Source: an uncultured Methanobrevibacter sp. (GTDB lineage: Archaea > Methanobacteriota > Methanobacteria > Methanobacteriales > Methanobacteriaceae). Taken from it: a stretch of DNA of 64,000 nt. Below the pieces are notes generated by a model that did not search any database, was not told where the DNA came from, and saw only the letters and a list, made by a program, of their open reading frames with translations. Location: assembly GCA_900314635.1 (NCBI GenBank), contig OMVY01000003.1, positions 186,001-250,000 of the forward strand, given 5' to 3'. Both the position numbers and the translations under genes were made by a program. Shown in pieces: positions 31,137 to 48,373 of this stretch; position 1 is the stretch's first letter; the number at the start of each line of letters is the position of its first letter.

Positions 31137-31514
31137 AAAAAAAGATTTAGAGGCAGTACATAGAATTTATATTTGTATTTGGATGTTTAGTTAGGTTTTA
31201 TGGTTTTTAAATTTGGGGACATTTTGTCTATAAATTCTATGTACTATTTTGGAGATTGAGACAAATTATGTCTATATCAATAATTTTAACTCTCTCACTA
31301 ATTAGATTATTAATAATTAATTCGGTTCGGAAAAGAAAATATGTTTTGTTTACTTATTAATAAATGATTATAATAATTCTATTGTTTGACAACACGTATT
31401 AAGAGATTAAATATGAATATTTTTTTTTAGAATCATTATAATCAATGTCTAATTAAAGAATGTATTTAATTAAAATTATTTCAACAAAAATTTAGGTGAA
31501 CCTAAATATTTGTT
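31137..31514 (-). ncRNA. Candidate iron-regulated small RNA C
   Basis: Predicted transcript on the minus strand, about 380 nt, starting about 25 bases past the TATA box at 31536-31543 and ending at a seven-U run (31138-31144). No ORF above about a dozen codons is present. Reading along the RNA, it has the hairpin AGACA/TGTCT, the conserved unpaired box CAATCTCCAAA (31258-31248), and a perfect 16-bp terminal stem (31245-31230 with 31170-31155) opening with AGTACATAG. The box and stem start match RNAs A and B at 47 kb. It lies downstream of, and is parallel to, the metal P-type ATPase. Assignment as RNA gene is inferred from conservation, promoter and lack of coding capacity. Confidence 0.7.
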
Positions 31515-31570
31515 AATTATAGTTTGTTTTAATAGTATATAAACTTCTCTAAAATTTAGGTATTCCTAAA
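31491..31570 (-). promoter_or_regulatory. Iron-box promoter of small RNA C
   Basis: Two perfect palindromes TTTAGG-N4-CCTAAA, at 31555-31570 and 31491-31506, bracket a minus-strand TATA box (GTTTATATACTATT, 31531-31544). One box lies upstream of the TATA, the other just after the expected start, so a bound repressor would block both factor and polymerase. The layout and spacing equal those at 47.10-47.19 and 47.53-47.61 kb. Confidence 0.8.
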
Positions 31571-34704: not shown

Positions 34705-34756
34705 TTTAGGTTTTCCTAAAATAGATTTATATTATTCTTTTTTAGGTCTATCTAAG
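34705..34756 (-). promoter_or_regulatory. Iron-box promoter of the DUF6110/P-type ATPase operon
   Basis: TTTAGG-TTTT-CCTAAA (34705-34720) and the weaker TTTAGG-TCTA-TCTAAG (34741-34756) flank a minus-strand TATA-like AATATAAA (34726-34733). The start would be near 34705, giving a leader of about 165 nt before DUF6110. This matches the other iron-box promoters but with closer spacing. Confidence 0.75.
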
Positions 34757-34890
34757 TTTTTTTCCAATATTTTAGTAAAACTAAGTAATTTATTACTAAT
34801 TTTGGTAAAACTAATCTTTTAGCCCTACATTTGAAGATATAATTTATTATTTGCTTTATATAGTATTTAAAGTTTTTTATTTTTTAATTT

Positions 34891-34906
34891 TTTAGGAATG
34901 CTTAAA
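34891..34906. promoter_or_regulatory. Degenerate iron box in the 34.5-35.2 kb gap
   Basis: TTTAGG-AATG-CTTAAA lies 36 bases from a TATA-like CTTTATATAG (about 34855). Two further weak palindromes, TTTTAGTAAAACTAAG and TTTTGGTAAAACTAA, occur near 34770-34815. The gap 34757-35199 has no supported gene; the direction of any transcript from here is unclear. Confidence 0.4.
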
Positions 34907-35199
34907 TTTAAAACAGACGAGTATTTGTAATTATTTTTTGTATTTGGGAAATTTAAACTATTTATTGGGTGTTTGGGCGTTTTATAATTATTTTTTTCAG
35001 TTTTATGTTTGTTCTTTTTTAATCTCTAAAAATTTATTTTTTGGCCATGTTGGAAAAATTTTAAACCAGTTTTGATTTGAAAATAATTTTGGATTGATTT
35101 TTGATTTGAAAATAATTTTTTGATTGATTTTTGATTTGTAAAATAATAATATATTAAATATAAACTATCTTAAAAATTTCAAGGCAAATGTGTGGTGCG

Positions 35200-35424
35200 C
35201 TACTTCATCAAGCCTATGGCCAGGCCAATTATTAATAGGATTATCATTCCCGTCAGCTTGATCAGCACTCCTTTTCTAGTGGCTTTCATTTCAGCATCTT
35301 TCATATCCGAGTGGAAGGGGTTCTTTGTCTTGTAATTTTTTTCTTTCAGCCTGTTTTCACAATGGGGGCAGAATATATATTCTGAATGTATTTCCTCTCC
35401 ACAATATGGGCATTTTTCCTTCAT
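35200..35424 (-). CDS. Zinc-ribbon protein with C-terminal membrane anchor
   Basis: A 74-residue protein: double zinc knuckle CPYCGEEIHSEYIFCPHCE (5-23), a basic linker, and a C-terminal membrane helix (GVLIKLTGMIILLIIGLAIGLM, about 52-73), so a tail-anchored ribbon facing the cytosol. It stands divergent from the feo genes. No known function; such zinc-ribbon tail-anchored proteins are frequent in Methanobacteriales. AAGGA lies before the ATG at 35424. Confidence 0.7.
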   Translation of the reverse strand: MKEKCPYCGEEIHSEYIFCPHCENRLKEKNYKTKNPFHSDMKDAEMKATRKGVLIKLTGMIILLIIGLAIGLMK

Positions 35425-35555
35425 GGTTTTCCTTCTTTATATTATATATATTTTAATTCATGTTTTTCGAATTGATTTTTTTTTAATTATCTTTAATTTG
35501 CTTTTTTGATTGTTTAATCGAGATTTTTTTACACTAATTGTTAACTATATTTATT

Positions 35556-35859
35556 TTTAGGCAAACTTAAAAAAATTTTTTATTTTTTGTTAAACCTAAA
35601 CTTTATATAGGATAAAAATGTAAACTAATATTAGGTTTTAGGTCTACCTAAACAATATTTTGTGTGGGGGCTGAATCATTTTATTTGGCTCTTTTTAATT
35701 AAATTTTAATAAAAGTTTTATTATTTTTTCATTTTAATCAACAAAAAGTTCATAATTTATTAATTTAAAAATACCCAATTTTTAAAATTTTAATATGCAA
35801 AAAATACCTCAAAATTAATAAAATTTTATTAAAAAAATATTTTTTTAGGCATACCTAAA
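35556..35859 (+). promoter_or_regulatory. Double iron-box promoter region of feoA-feoB
   Basis: Distal promoter: a degenerate box TTTAGG-CAAA-CTTAAA (35556-35571) and a half site CCTAAA (35595-35600), then TATA TTTATATA (35602-35609) and a perfect box TTTAGG-TCTA-CCTAAA (35637-35652) at the expected start. Proximal: a further perfect box TTTAGG-CATA-CCTAAA (35844-35859), 55 bases before feoA. The 190 bases between carry GTGTGGGGGCTGAAT and AT-rich DNA without an ORF; they may be a leader or a short RNA. Confidence 0.75.
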
Positions 35860-35913: not shown

Positions 35914-36144
35914 ATGATAAAAACATTAAATGAACTCAAAACTGGAGAAGAAGGTACTCTGGTTTCCTATCAAGGAGGAGATGTCGAACTGAGAAGACAT
36001 TTGCTCGGTATGGGTTTTGTAAAGGGAGCAACAATAAAGCTTGAAAAAGTGGCTCCTCTCGGTGATCCCTTAGAATTGAAAGTTAAAGGATATGCGGTTT
36101 GTTTAAGAAAAGAAGAAGCTAAATTTATTAAAGTGGAAGTTTAA
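35914..36144 (+). CDS. feoA: Ferrous iron transport protein A
   Basis: Small SH3-like cytosolic partner of the FeoB iron channel. The 76 residues show the FeoA core: LNELKTGEEGTLVSYQGGDVELRRHLLGMGFVKGATIKLEKVAPLGDPLELKVKGYAVCLRKEEA. It is transcribed towards feoB1 with 110 bases between. GAGAGGTTATG is the ribosome-binding region. Only one feoA serves the two feoB genes in the window. Confidence 0.95.
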   Translation: MIKTLNELKTGEEGTLVSYQGGDVELRRHLLGMGFVKGATIKLEKVAPLGDPLELKVKGYAVCLRKEEAKFIKVEV

Positions 36145-36254: not shown

Positions 36255-38273
36255 ATGGCGAATTTAAAAATAGGTTTAGCTGGTAACCCTAATGTAGGTA
36301 AAACCACCTTATTTAACAATTTGACTGGTTTGAACCAACATGTGGGAAATTGGCCAGGTAAAACCGTAGAAAAGGCAGAAGGGCACTATAATTATAATAA
36401 CAACCGAGTTGACGTTATCGACTTGCCTGGAAACTATGCATTAAGTGCTCATTCAATCGAAGAGATTGTATCAAGAGATTTCATTGTAGATGAAGACTCT
36501 GATGTGATTGTAAATATTATAGATGCATCCAACCTTGAAAGAAACCTTTATTTAACAGTTCAAATGATGGAGCTTGGAGCTAATTTGGTTGTTGCACTGA
36601 ACATGAACAAGTTTGCTCAGGATAAAGGGTACACAATAGATGCTAAAAAACTTTCTGACTTGTTAGGAGTGCCGGTAGTAGAAATTGAAGCTAACAGTAA
36701 AATCGGTAAGGATCAATTGTTAAAAACTATTGAAGAGGCTGCAAAAAATCCTGTTAACACAGTAAACAGATTATCTTACGGTCCTGAATTATTTGATCAT
36801 TTAAATGAGCTTCAAACTGCTATTGAAGAGGATAAGAACTTGGGTGATGTCCCATCCCGTTGGATTGCAATCAAATTGCTTGAAGATGATGAAATCATTC
36901 TTGATAGAATTGAAGACTCTTCCAAAAGAAATAATATTTTAAATACAACTGAAAAAGTGAAAAAACACTTTAAGGATATTTATAACGAAAGCAGTGAAGA
37001 AGTTATTGCAAATGCAAGATATGCATACATTGAAGGATTGCTTAAGGAAGTTTTAACCAAGCCTGCAACCGAAAAGAAAACTCTCACTGACAAAATCGAC
37101 AGTATTGTAACTAACAGACTCTTAGGATTCCCTATATTCTTAATTATAATGTACCTGATGTTCCAGATTACATTTACTGTAGCAGCTCCATTCCAGGACA
37201 TGATTGATGAAGGATTTGGAATTTTAGGTGAAATGGTGGCAGCAGCTCTTGGTGATGGAATGCTCACCTCATTTATCGTAGATGGTATCATCGGCGGAGT
37301 AGGTGGAGTATTAGTGTTCCTTCCACAAATTATACTCTTGTTCTTGATCATTAGTTTCTTGGAAGACAGTGGTTACCTTGCAAGAGCAGCTTTTGTTATG
37401 GATAAAGTAATGCACAGTTTAGTTGGCCTGCACGGTAAAGCATTCATTCCTATGATTTTAGGATTCGGATGCGGTATTCCAGGTATTATGGCAACAAGAA
37501 CCATGGAAAACGAGAAAGACAGATTAATCACCATGCTGATTGTTCCATTCATGTCTTGTACTGCAAGAATGCCTGTATACTTATTATTAGTAGGTGCTTT
37601 CTTTGCTGCAGCAGACCAGACCAATGTAATCTTCTCATTATACGTCTTAGGTATTGTTGTAGCAATTATTGTGGCATTTATTTTAAGAAAAACCTTGTTT
37701 GATGATATGGATGCTCCATTCGTAATGGAATTGCCTGATTACAAATTGCCAACCCTCAGAGGTATTTTAATGCACACTGCAGAAAAATCCTGGGGATTCG
37801 TAAGAAAAGCAGGTACCATTATCTTAGCAGCAGCAATTATTGTATGGATTTTAAGCAGTTTCCCAGCTGGAGTGGAATATGGTTCTCAAGAAAGTGCAAT
37901 CGGTATGATTGGTACTGCAGTAGCACCTGTATTCGCACCTCTTGGATTCGGCAGCTGGCAACCTGCAGTAGCATTGATCTTCGGATTAGTTGCTAAGGAG
38001 GTTGTAGTCGGAACCTTCAGTTCACTCTTCGGAGTAGCCGAGGAGGGAGCGGGAATAGCGGCGGCAATGCATGGAATCTTTACTCCGTTAACCGCTTACG
38101 TATTCATGGTATTCGTACTGTTATACATCCCTTGTTTCGCAGCGCTAGGTACTATCAAACAGGAAACCGGCGGCTGGAAATGGCCTTTAATAATGTCAGT
38201 TACTACTTTGATAACCGCTTATGTGGTTGCATTCATTGTTTACATGGTAGGTCTGGCACTAGGTTTCGGATAA
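36255..38273 (+). CDS. feoB1: Ferrous iron transport protein B, copy 1
   Basis: GTP-gated Fe(II) importer of the cytoplasmic membrane, 672 residues. The N-terminal G domain carries G1 [14 protein letters not shown] (about 9-22), G3 DLPGNYAL and G4 NMNK, followed by the helical GDI region. The C-terminal half has two gate domains ([34 protein letters not shown] and the second around VGTFSSLFG) and ten or so membrane helices. It is highly similar over its whole length to the second copy at 39.7 kb, clearly by duplication; this copy is linked to feoA. Confidence 0.97.
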
Positions 38274-39511: not shown

Positions 39512-39577
39512 ATTTGGCTAACCTAAACTTTAAATATCATATATATTAAAAGTAATACTATATTTGGGTAGACGTAA
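39512..39577 (+). promoter_or_regulatory. Degenerate iron-box promoter of feoB2
   Basis: ATTTGG-CTAA-CCTAAA (39512-39527), then a TATA-like CATATATATTA (about 39538-39548), and a second weak copy ATTTGGGTAGACGTAA (39562-39577) at the expected start: the same plan as the other iron promoters with poorer boxes. A GTAATAC heptamer like those before the nik genes is at 39552. The remaining part of the gap (39240-39511) holds repeated T-tracts (TTTCTATTATATGGTCG units at about 39258-39310) and no gene. Confidence 0.55.
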
Positions 39578-39690: not shown

Positions 39691-41709
39691 ATGGCAGATT
39701 TGAAAATAGGTTTTGCAGGCAATCCCAATGTGGGAAAAACCACTCTCTTCAATCAGCTGACTGGTATGAATCAGCATGTGGGAAACTGGCCTGGCAAAAC
39801 AGTTGAAAAGGCGGAGGGGCACTACGATTTTAATGGCAGGCGAGTTAATGTGGTTGATTTGCCTGGAAATTATGCATTAAGTGCTCATTCAATAGAAGAA
39901 ATAGTATCAAGGGACTTTATTGTAGATGAAGACTCAGATGTTATTGTAAATGTTGTAGATGCTTCTAATTTGGAAAGGAACTTGTATTTGACTGTTCAAA
40001 TGATGGAGCTTGGAGCTAATTTGGTTCTTGCTTCAAATATGAATAAATTCGCCCAGAGAAAAGGTTATGAAATCAAATACGATGTCTTGTCTGAATTGCT
40101 TGGAGTACCTGTTATTGAAATAGAAGCCAATTCTAATATCGGCATAAACAGATTGCTTGAAACTATTGAATATGCTGCAGAACATCCTGTTGATACAGTT
40201 GAAAGGCTGGTTTATGGTCCCGAGCTATTCGAGCATTTAACTGAACTTCAAGAGGTCATAGATGAAGATAAAAATATGAGCAAAGCTCCATCACGCTGGA
40301 TTGCAATCAAACTGCTTGAAAACGATGAAATAGTTCTTGACATGGTGGAAAACTCACCCAAAAGAAACAGGATCCTGAAAACAACTGATGATGTCAGAAG
40401 CCATTTGGAATCCATTTACGGCGAAAGCTGTGAAGAGATCATTGCAAATGCAAGGTATGCGTTTATCGATGGTTTGCTCAAGGAAGTTCTATTCAAGCCC
40501 CAAGTGGAAAAGGAAACTATTACTGATAAAATTGACAATATCGTGACCAACAGGATTTTCGGCCTTCCAATATTTTTACTAATCATGTTTCTAACCTTTG
40601 AGATAACATTCGTGGTTGGAGCTCCATTCCAGGATTTAATTGGAGAAGGATTCAATCTTCTGGGGGAGTGGATTATTTCGATTCTCGGACATTCAATGCT
40701 CTCATCATTTTTAGTTGACGGCGTAATCGGCGGAGTTGGAGGAGTGCTTGTTTTCGTTCCTCAAATCGCCATTCTGTTCTTCATTATAAGCTTCCTTGAA
40801 GACAGCGGATATCTGGCCAGAGCGGCTTTTGTAATGGACTGGGTAATGCACAAGCTTGTTGGACTGCATGGAAAGGCCTTCATCCCAATGATTCTCGGAT
40901 TTGGATGCGGTGTTCCGGGCATTATGGCAACAAGGACAATGGAGCATGAAAAGGATAGGATTATAACAATGTTCCTTATTCCATTCATGTCATGTTCTGC
41001 AAGATATCCCGTCTATCTGCTCCTTGTAGGTGCTTTCTTTGTCAAATCCTTGCAGGGCATAGTGATATTTTCATTGTACATGATAGGAATAATAGTGGCC
41101 ATCATCGTCGCATACATGCTTAAGAAGACATTGTTCAAGGATTTATCCGCTCCTTTTGTAATGGAACTGCCTGATTACAAAATGCCTACTGCAAAAGGCA
41201 TTCTCATGCATACCTGGGAGAAATCTTATGGGTTTGTCAGGAAGGCAGGTACGATTATTCTTGCCGCAGCTGTAGTAATCTGGATTTTAAGCAGCTTCCC
41301 TGCAGGAGTCACCTACGGATCACAGGAAAGTTTCATAGGCATGATAGGAACCGCAATCGCTCCGATATTTGCTCCTCTTGGATTTGGCAGTTGGCAGGCT
41401 TCTGTTTCCATACTATTCGGTCTGGTTGCAAAGGAGGTTGTCGTATCCACATTCAGTTCATTATTCGGAGTGGCTGAAGGAAGCTTTGCCATGATGAATG
41501 CAATGCATGGGGTTTTCACACCGCTTTCAGCATATTCATTCATGGTGTTCGTGCTGCTTTATGTTCCTTGCTTTGCAACCCTTGCAACTGTAAAGCAGGA
41601 AACCGGAGGTTGGAAATGGCCAATGGTCATGACAGCAGTTACAATTATCACTGCATTCATAGTTTCATTTGCAGTTTACAATATAGGATTATTACTTGGA
41701 TTTGCTTGA
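39691..41709 (+). CDS. feoB2: Ferrous iron transport protein B, copy 2
   Basis: Second 672-residue FeoB with the same motifs as copy 1 ([29 protein letters not shown], and gate segments). The G domain and membrane gates are nearly identical between copies; differences concentrate in the helical linker (about 150-270) and some membrane helices ([22 protein letters not shown]). It has no adjacent feoA of its own and only weak iron boxes, so expression may differ from copy 1. Confidence 0.97.
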
Positions 41710-47103: not shown

Positions 47104-47186
47104 TTTAGGTATGCCTAAATTTTTAGAAAGGTTTATATACTATGAAGTACAACTATTAAATAACAAGAAATTTAGGCGAACCTAAA
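47104..47186 (+). promoter_or_regulatory. Iron-box promoter of small RNA A
   Basis: Perfect boxes TTTAGG-TATG-CCTAAA (47104-47119) and TTTAGG-CGAA-CCTAAA (47171-47186) flank TATA TTTATATA (47132-47139). The expected start is near 47163, so the second box covers the first transcribed bases. Box-to-box distance is 67 bases, the same as in the next promoter. Confidence 0.82.
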
Positions 47187-47430
47187 TTTTTTGTTTGACA
47201 ATCTTAACATATTATTAACTTGAATTTTACAAAACAAATCAATCATCTTCAACGGAATCGCTCATCCGTCTTTTCCTCTTGTAAAATTCGAAAAACACGT
47301 AATCTAAGGTTGTTCATAAAACCATTGATAAATAGCGTGGTACTATTTATCGCAATCTCCAAAATTTAGTGCATGGTAATATAAGCCAGTTACTATGCAC
47401 GCCTCTTATTTTAATCGCTTTTTTATTTTT
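47163..47430 (+). ncRNA. Candidate iron-regulated small RNA A
   Basis: About 270 nt with no ORF longer than four codons. Fold elements in order: an 11-bp stem GAATTTTACAA/TTGTAAAATTC (47222-47232 with 47279-47289) enclosing hairpin ACGGA/TCCGT (47252-47269); a perfect 9-bp hairpin GATAAATAG/CTATTTATC (47327-47351); the conserved single-stranded box CAATCTCCAAA (47353-47363); and an 11-bp terminal hairpin (47369-47379 with 47390-47400), then a U-tract near 47418. Box and hairpin start are shared with RNAs B and C. Confidence 0.75.
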
Positions 47431-47525: not shown

Positions 47526-47608
47526 TTTAGCCATACCTAAAAATTCCAAAAAGTTTATATATGATGAAAACAAACTAATAAATAACAATAAATTTAGGCA
47601 CACCTAAA
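47526..47608 (+). promoter_or_regulatory. Iron-box promoter of small RNA B
   Basis: TTTAGC-CATA-CCTAAA (47526-47541) and the perfect TTTAGG-CACA-CCTAAA (47593-47608) flank TATA TTTATATA (47554-47561); expected start near 47585. Sequence between TATA and second box (ACAAACTAATAAATAACAA) is similar to the other two RNA promoters. Confidence 0.82.
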
Positions 47609-47915
47609 TTATTGTAAATGAATAATCTATAATAATCTTTTTAATAATAATTTTGAGCATTTTATTGATCTCATAAATGATATGTAGATCATGAACAGCT
47701 TGAAATTATTATTAAACATTTAAGTTTTACTTAAAAAAACACACATCATTTTCTTCTGCAGATTAATCTGTTTCTTTTGCCCAAATCTAAGTAAAACTTA
47801 AAAATCCCAAAAGATTATCTGATAAATAGTAAAAAAAGTCATTTATTATTTGTCTCAATCTCCAAATTAGTACATAGCGCTGCTATGTGCTATTCCTTAA
47901 TTGCTTTTTTTATTT
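47585..47915 (+). ncRNA. Candidate iron-regulated small RNA B
   Basis: About 330 nt; the longest start-to-stop frame is ten codons and is not shared with A or C. A hairpin with imperfect arms TGATCTCAT/ATGTAGATCA (47667-47692) is followed by a perfect 13-bp stem TAAGTTTTACTTA/TAAGTAAAACTTA (47721-47733 with 47788-47800) enclosing CAGATTAATCTG. Then come a GATAAATA/TATTTGTC stem (47821-47854), the box CAATCTCCAAA (47856-47866) and terminal hairpin GTACATAGC/GCTATGTGC (47870-47890), ending in a seven-T run near 47911. Overall order equals RNA A. Confidence 0.75.
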
Positions 47916-48205
47916 TTTTTTAAAACTATTCTTGTAACCTTTATTTTATAAACTTATTTAACTATTCTCGAGTCTTTATTTTATTAAACTTATTTCCTAT
48001 GATTCTCATTATATTTTAAATAAATCATTTTTCCTTTTGAATAATTTAAAAGAAGTTTTCTTAATTTTCATGGAAAGTGGAAAAGGAATTCAAAACTTGA
48101 AAAATTAGTTGGAATTATTAAAATCAATCCAATTCAAAAGATCTGGCAAGATTTTAATAATAAGCTTTATGAAATGGTATTGTAGGATGTATCGCAGCTG
48201 GTGGT

Positions 48206-48373
48206 TTATTCTATATACATGGCGCCTAAAGGACAAGCTTCAATGCATAATCCGCAATCATCACAGCCGTCACGGACTTTCATGGTGTATCCTATTTTTA
48301 TAATCAGGTCTTTAGGGCATTTTGGAACGCATTGTTCACAGACTCCGCAATACTCGTTATCAATCATTAACAA
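48206..48373 (-). CDS. Small 2[4Fe-4S] ferredoxin-like protein
   Basis: A polypeptide of about 55 residues holding two full cluster motifs, CGVCEQCVPKCP and CDDCGLCIEACP (each C-x2-C-x2-C-x3-C), so it should bind two [4Fe-4S] clusters as a soluble electron carrier. The frame opens at ATG 48391, but GGTGA (48382-48378) sits inside it. The TTG at 48373 (four-base spacing) or ATG at 48367 is then the likely start. It is convergent with the iron-regulated RNAs. Between RNA B (47915) and this gene is AT-rich DNA without other genes. Confidence 0.8.
   Translation of the reverse strand: MLMIDNEYCGVCEQCVPKCPKDLIIKIGYTMKVRDGCDDCGLCIEACPLGAMYIE

Follow-up and report, generated by a model that had tools for sequence, protein, structure and literature searches.

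Iron sparing by small RNAs has so far been described as a bacterial strategy. IsrR of Staphylococcus is a 174 nt RNA with two Fur boxes and several single-stranded C-rich regions, it pairs with the Shine-Dalgarno (SD) sequence of fdhA mRNA, and its targets are proven by experiment (PMC9410917, PMC11257911). RyhB, PrrF and FsrA follow the same logic in other bacteria, being made in iron shortage and reducing iron-using proteins; RyhB and PrrF are Hfq-dependent, while FsrA depends on FbpABC and uses a C-rich motif against SDs (PMC9410917). Among methanogens, sRNA154, sRNA162 and sRNA41 of Methanosarcina mazei act in trans by covering ribosome-binding sites, but they serve nitrogen or methylamine regulation and no iron-box promoter is reported for them (PMC5867862, PMC3510493, PMC3600222). 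An iron-regulated trans-acting RNA in archaea was not found in the open-access literature searched, which is weak evidence of absence.

Here we describe three structured non-coding RNAs of one Methanobrevibacter genome, located in a stretch of 64,000 nt that was analysed as a whole (the window). Two of them form a tandem (RNA a and RNA b) and the third, R3, is a paralogue on the other strand. Each holds one copy of the 11-nt word CAATCTCCAAA (in RNA form CAAUCUCCAAA; the box), and the window contains no other exact copy (Table 1). By analogy, IsrR would be the closest working model: the RNAs resemble it in an apparently iron-controlled promoter with two operators, in genus-wide conservation, in several single-stranded C-rich regions and in a predicted SD pairing with iron-enzyme mRNAs, the formate dehydrogenase gene fdhA included. 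IsrR differs in being bacterial, in being Fur-repressed rather than carrying a DtxR-type box, in its length and in sharing no sequence match with the RNAs here, whose candidate targets come from sequence complementarity. With RyhB, PrrF and FsrA the RNAs share the presumed logic but no homology, and the Methanosarcina RNAs are unrelated in sequence and come from distant archaea. The RNAs described here are likely a new, non-homologous archaeal counterpart of the IsrR/RyhB-type iron-sparing RNAs.

Table 1. Features of the three RNA loci and of the feo genes (positions in the window).
Feature	Position	Strand	Remarks
Iron-box palindrome 1 of R3	31555..31570	-	
Iron-box palindrome 2 of R3	31491..31506	-	
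R3, third paralogous RNA	31140..31516	-	fold z -7.5; covariance model match
Box CAAUCUCCAAA of R3	31248..31258	-	
Iron palindrome before feoA	35844..35859	+	same motif; ties motif to iron
feoA, ferrous iron transport protein A	35914..36144	+	NCBIfam E 2.6e-9, under the model's cut-off
feoB, ferrous iron transporter	36255..38273	+	Pfam FeoB_N 2.9e-63
Iron-box palindrome 1 of RNA a, TTTAGGTATGCCTAAA	47104..47119	+	IdeR/DtxR consensus TTAGGNNNNCCTAA
TATA box TTTATATA of RNA a	47132..47139	+	between both palindromes; layout matches nearly all homologues
RNA a, first of tandem	47162..47425	+	putative start from TATA spacing, putative end from T-run; fold z -6.4
Iron-box palindrome 2 of RNA a	47171..47186	+	67 nt past palindrome 1; near the putative transcription start
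Hairpin immediately 5' of box, RNA a	47327..47351	+	predicted fold
Box CAAUCUCCAAA of RNA a	47353..47363	+	predicted unpaired
Hairpin immediately 3' of box, RNA a	47369..47400	+	then a T-rich tail resembling a terminator
Iron-box palindrome 1 of RNA b	47526..47541	+	one mismatch
TATA box of RNA b	47554..47561	+	
RNA b, second of tandem	47584..47915	+	fold z -9.7; 13 homologues beyond the window's own
Iron-box palindrome 2 of RNA b	47593..47608	+	
Second conserved unpaired block CACAUCAUUUUCUUCUGCA of RNA b	47742..47760	+	nearly invariant, 14 species
Hairpin 5' of box, RNA b	47821..47854	+	predicted fold
Box CAAUCUCCAAA of RNA b	47856..47866	+	CAACCUCCAAA in most relatives
Hairpin 3' of box, RNA b	47868..47892	+	followed by T-run

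The RNAs are about 260–380 nt long, end in terminator-like T-runs and fold well below shuffled sequence (z values in Table 1). A protein-coding reading was rejected, as the full-length alignments contain indels of lengths not divisible by three and show no evident common frame. The strong folds, the T-run ends and these frame-breaking indels point to independent non-coding transcripts with terminators. Scanned against Rfam at gathering scores, the window returned tRNAs only, with no match to IsrR, RyhB or another family. The neighbours of R3 are a P-type ATPase gene and, at a distance of about 4 kb, feoAB. Convergent to RNA b, beyond its terminator-like end, is a small gene for a two-cluster ferredoxin-like protein (48205–48370, minus strand).

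In each promoter, a palindrome TTTAGGnnnnCCTAAA is followed by the TATA box TTTATATA, about 28 nt from the palindrome start, and by a second palindrome 64–67 nt after the first. The same dual operator around the TATA box was read in 27 genus homologues, mostly with 67-nt spacing, and TTTATATA is present in all but one. The operator consensus of IdeR/DtxR is TTAGGNNNNCCTAA (PMC8464063), and its half-site equals the palindromes at the small-RNA promoters; what sets these sites apart from known IdeR/DtxR operators is their arrangement as a pair around an archaeal TATA box, in the promoter of a non-coding RNA. Palindromes of the TTAGGNNNNCCTAA type number 18 in the genome (36 strand hits), versus 1 for the reversed control. 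Since the IdeR/DtxR consensus lies in the RNA promoters and the same motif precedes feoA, iron control is a well-founded reading, and we consider it very probable that the small RNAs are under such control. A crude regular-expression search over partial genome samples gave no match for a DtxR-family repressor gene.

Further palindromes were found near other genes. The mostly intergenic region 34705–35859, before feoA, holds five palindromes or near-palindromes in 1.2 kb, and those at 34705 and 34891 adjoin no recognised gene. Besides the feoB listed in Table 1, the window contains a second full-length feoB (39691–41709), preceded by a degenerate iron palindrome ATTTGGCTAACCTAAA at 39512. Outside these regions, iron palindromes occur upstream of an EhaA-like gene (L015:1501), upstream of the fwdF region (L019:1501) and, at L012:1137, between a small ORF and what may be a methyltransferase gene. 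The sites near energy-converting-hydrogenase-like and formylmethanofuran-dehydrogenase-like genes point to a possible direct control of methanogenesis genes by the regulator.

Within the genus, 16 of the 19 genomes carry the RNAs (a or b copy), mostly arranged in tandem. A first covariance model detected 15 of the 19 and missed genome G003, which a second model added; with stricter filters, the second model found no RNA in 119 genomes from 16 other genera of the family. The rumen Methanobrevibacter MAG RUG11990 carries RNA homologues. The flanking stems vary among species, with pairing retained at several changed positions, while box a is invariant across 14 species. Other conserved unpaired blocks are UUCCUCCCUUU and the loop AAUCCCAGG in a-type RNAs, and CAUCAUUUUCUUCUG in both types. 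The existence of the small RNAs, their promoter layout and their conservation can be regarded as practically certain.

The box is the longest sequence block common to RNA a, RNA b and R3. It is unpaired in the minimum free energy (MFE) folds of all three, and the predicted fold places it in an open linker between two hairpins. Over the genus homologues, its mean unpaired probability is 0.84 (a) and 0.83 (b), versus 0.44 and 0.42 for the whole RNA, so that in the 14 a-type RNAs the box has the properties of an accessible conserved seed. The preliminary description had pointed to this block at 47353–47363 as the most conserved unpaired block of the three RNAs. Its presence and its predicted exposure are confirmed. 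Its rank holds among the window RNAs but not genus-wide, where CAUCAUUUUCUUCUG is equally conserved, and its identity holds in the three window RNAs, whereas the downstream (b) copies of relatives usually read CAACCUCCAAA. A chance repeat was dismissed as an explanation of the box, for the genome (2.29 Mb, 36 contigs) contains 10 exact copies of CAATCTCCAAA on both strands and none of the reversed control.

Outside Methanobrevibacter, the promoter type and the box recur on another RNA scaffold. The dual palindrome is present in 18 of 19 genus genomes, in most genomes of a sister genus (g9; usually 1–5 each) and in 3 genomes of one further genus, and in none of the remaining genera searched. 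We read 44 dual-operator loci of g9, of which 17 carry exact CAATCTCCAAA, 7 more carry TCTCCAAA and others carry variants such as ACACTCCGATT; in 35 of the 44, no ORF of 60 aa starts in the first 330 nt. In these RNAs the box (unpaired probability 0.87) lies near the 5' end and is followed by other hairpins and by a stem resembling a terminator, GGTGTTT...AAACACC. In some genomes a FeoB-like GTPase gene stands directly behind such a promoter in place of an RNA (L365, L366 and L402, the last on the minus strand), indicating a promoter type common to an iron transporter and the RNAs. At six g9 loci (L378, L381, L392, L398, L407 and L408), ACACTCCGATT replaces the box and the downstream structure is another one; these loci are perhaps another RNA family with another seed.

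That one 11-mer recurs unchanged, following the same promoter type, in RNAs of another architecture argues most strongly for the box being the functional element, although this pattern is compatible with an RNA partner and a protein partner alike. The RNAs could be iron-controlled while the box is mainly a structural element or is bound by a protein such as an RNA chaperone or a translation factor, and other blocks such as CAUCAUUUUCUUCUG or UUCCUCCCUUU pick the targets. A protein site would equally predict a box kept in two scaffolds, in b-type RNAs the conservation of CAUCAUUUUCUUCUG equals or exceeds that of the box, and the b copy of G003 retains its promoter, the CAUCAUUUUCUUCUG block and its hairpins while its box has decayed to CAUCUUGAAA (L298). 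We nevertheless consider this reading unlikely, as an Fe-S bias among complementary starts is seen for the box but not for the other unpaired blocks (p 0.34 and 0.89 at 7 nt), and as the SD of an FdhA-like gene differs between the RNA-bearing genus and others precisely at the base that completes the box complement (both below). A seed acting by RNA-RNA pairing against SDs is the function that we propose for the box with moderate confidence.

In the 10 genome copies of CAATCTCCAAA, 3 are the small RNAs themselves, and the 7 others were examined through the complement TTTGGAGATTG. Three of these are the SD of a gene (DUF2193, thiI and an MntP-annotated gene), one lies within the 5' leader of a polyferredoxin gene, and the remaining copies are intragenic, two in coding regions in sense and one antisense.

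In order to examine Fe-S genes, start regions were sampled from stretches of three genomes (0.86, 0.79 and 0.40 Mb, with 700, 645 and 304 genes encoding 80 aa or more), and genes were assigned to the Fe-S set by a regular expression for cysteine motifs, which covers 4.4% of genes and misses some families. Among starts with at least 7 nt of box complementarity, 13% (16 of 124) belong to Fe-S genes, about 3-fold the overall 4.4%. By genome, such a match precedes 7 of 29, 5 of 29 and 4 of 14 Fe-S genes (Fisher p 0.002, 0.075 and 0.02; 0.016, 0.037 and 0.049 with a narrower start window that was tried first), the three genomes having common orthologues and thus not being independent. Control words cut from real SDs give 6.9% Fe-S genes in average, and 17 of 384 (about 4%) reach the box value, among them several words that differ little from the box itself. 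An Fe-S bias among box-complementary starts is therefore present and modest: the enrichment beyond other anti-SD words that the preliminary description had called for exists, but it is equalled by those 17 controls.

Other blocks were tried as Fe-S seeds and rejected. The complementary starts of AAUCCCAGG, the tail GCCUCUUAUUU, UUCCUCCCUUU and CAUCAUUUUCUUCUG show no clear bias; for UUCCUCCCUUU, the second anti-SD-like block of the RNAs, 5 of 88 complementary starts belong to Fe-S genes, and for GCCUCUUAUUU the Fe-S p value falls from 0.18 with 7 nt to 0.025 with 9 nt (6 genes). The word TTTGGAGAT before ATG occurs 8.3 and 8.7 times per Mb in the RNA-bearing genera versus 6.5–8.2 in several RNA-less genera. 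A genome-wide excess over these RNA-less genera was thus not found, and the target set must be small.

Since any anti-SD-like word fits many SDs, the Fe-S matches might be a by-product of SD composition, with the box doing something else. The control words that reach the same Fe-S fraction, the unremarkable TTTGGAGAT frequency and the matches inside the window, which are at chance, are all in line with this. GGAGAT stands shortly before ATG 8 times in the window, versus 5.6 +/- 2.3 in shuffles. The preliminary description had drawn its targets from here, namely rli1, a small gene at 22.26 kb and a gene led by GGGAGAT, and all three have matches of just 6–7 nt, so they are not supported as targets. 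The sequence before the rli1 ATG is as given there (TAGGAGATAAAATG), while the 22.26 kb gene reads AGAGGAGATT and not GGAGGAGATT. As a prime target rli1 was rejected, its match being 6 nt in the window's genome and 7 nt in G003. Several of the best matches also lack conservation in relatives: moaA and thiI match over 10–11 nt in the window's genome only, and mntP is probably to be discarded too, as MntP homologues were seen without the match. Against a mere by-product stand the like Fe-S trend in three genomes, the lack of bias for the second anti-SD-like block, and the complementarity of the FdhA-like gene and FwdF, which is kept across species. We hold this explanation to be quite improbable.

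Better candidates than those of the preliminary description lie outside the window, namely the FdhA-like gene, FdhA, FwdF, DUF2193 and a polyferredoxin. The best of them would be the short FdhA-like gene, which encodes a [4Fe-4S] protein of 358 aa with a Molybdop_Fe4S4 domain, below the curated Fdh-alpha cut-off. Its SD contains GGAGA in 12 of 12 genus copies, with a box match of 7–11 nt (the full 11 nt in two). In other genera (15 readable copies), TTTGGTGAT with a 5-nt match is found in 10, GGAGA occurs in only 2 and 13 are without it. The T-to-A change in this SD would complete the box complement while weakening the pairing with the 16S end.

For FdhA proper (906 bits; cut-off 666), the SD is TGGAGATT (8-nt match) in each of the 12 readable copies of the genus, while 5 of 5 readable copies in g9 have the 10-nt TTTGGAGATT; TGGAGATT also precedes fdhA in some genomes whose genera yielded no RNAs. 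The SD of FwdF, TTTGGAGG(T), fits the b-type box in three genomes, and DUF2193 has an identical SD site in two. In the polyferredoxin gene, which encodes many 4Fe-4S motifs, the leader TTTGGAGATTG is enclosed by a perfect inverted repeat ATACTATTT...AAATAGTAT (L010:1440–1530; G000:C35:13825), so the box complement is predicted to be presented by a hairpin loop, in the manner of a kissing interaction.

Genes without Fe-S clusters retain complementarity as well (TBP, valS, an aminotransferase and ribosomal protein S19e). The conserved matches of housekeeping genes such as TBP and S19e are what a general translation brake would produce, in which the ACCUCC of b-type RNAs mimics the 16S rRNA 3' end (CACCUCC) and lowers initiation at many SD-led mRNAs in iron shortage; the b-type box of most relatives, CAACCUCCAAA, would suit such a role. 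The a-type AAUCUCC, however, is invariant despite deviating from the anti-SD, and full 11-nt matches to the b box are almost absent outside the RNAs, which leaves a general brake very improbable.

Our preferred reading of the box is the base-pairing seed of a small-RNA family for iron starvation. In the proposed mechanism, a DtxR/IdeR-type repressor loaded with Fe(II) would sit on the palindromes around the TATA box and keep the RNAs off, and at low iron, as the operator and its presence before feoA suggest, the RNAs would be made. Their hairpins are predicted to leave CAAUCUCCAAA open, and the box would pair with GGAGAUU-type SDs of selected mRNAs and stop ribosome loading. The targets would include iron-expensive Fe-S enzymes (the FdhA-like [4Fe-4S] protein, the formate dehydrogenase FdhA and the FwdF polyferredoxin, the last mainly through the b-type box CAACCUCCAAA), with DUF2193 and a polyferredoxin as probable targets, and the net effect would be to spare iron.

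This scheme carries over the view of the preliminary description that the RNAs block translation starts by base pairing, for which the iron-box control, the accessible and conserved anti-SD-like box and the Fe-S bias speak, while the targets named there are replaced. Judged from sequence, the whole explanation, iron-controlled RNAs with an SD-blocking box that spare iron, seems to us rather probable, and the sparing of iron through Fe-S enzymes equally so. With about even chances, Methanobrevibacter-type archaea may have a multigene iron-sparing RNA regulon that has retained nothing but the seed CAAUCUCCAAA and the dual-iron-box promoter, the scaffold being swapped between genera. It would be an archaeal analogue of RyhB/IsrR of independent origin, curbing formate dehydrogenase and, in formylmethanofuran dehydrogenase, the electron-transfer subunit in iron scarcity.

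In summary, the box matches the ribosome-binding sites of some Fe-S enzymes, e.g. formate dehydrogenase, and the RNAs probably save iron by blocking them. As the named targets are few, the idea is directly testable. If it is true, the SD-blocking iron-sparing RNA arose separately in archaea, and formate dehydrogenase would be a kind of target in common with IsrR. Methanobrevibacter is a main methanogen of the rumen and the human gut. Since methanogenesis depends on Fe-S proteins, the RNAs would then be a control point that ties iron supply to formate use and methane output.
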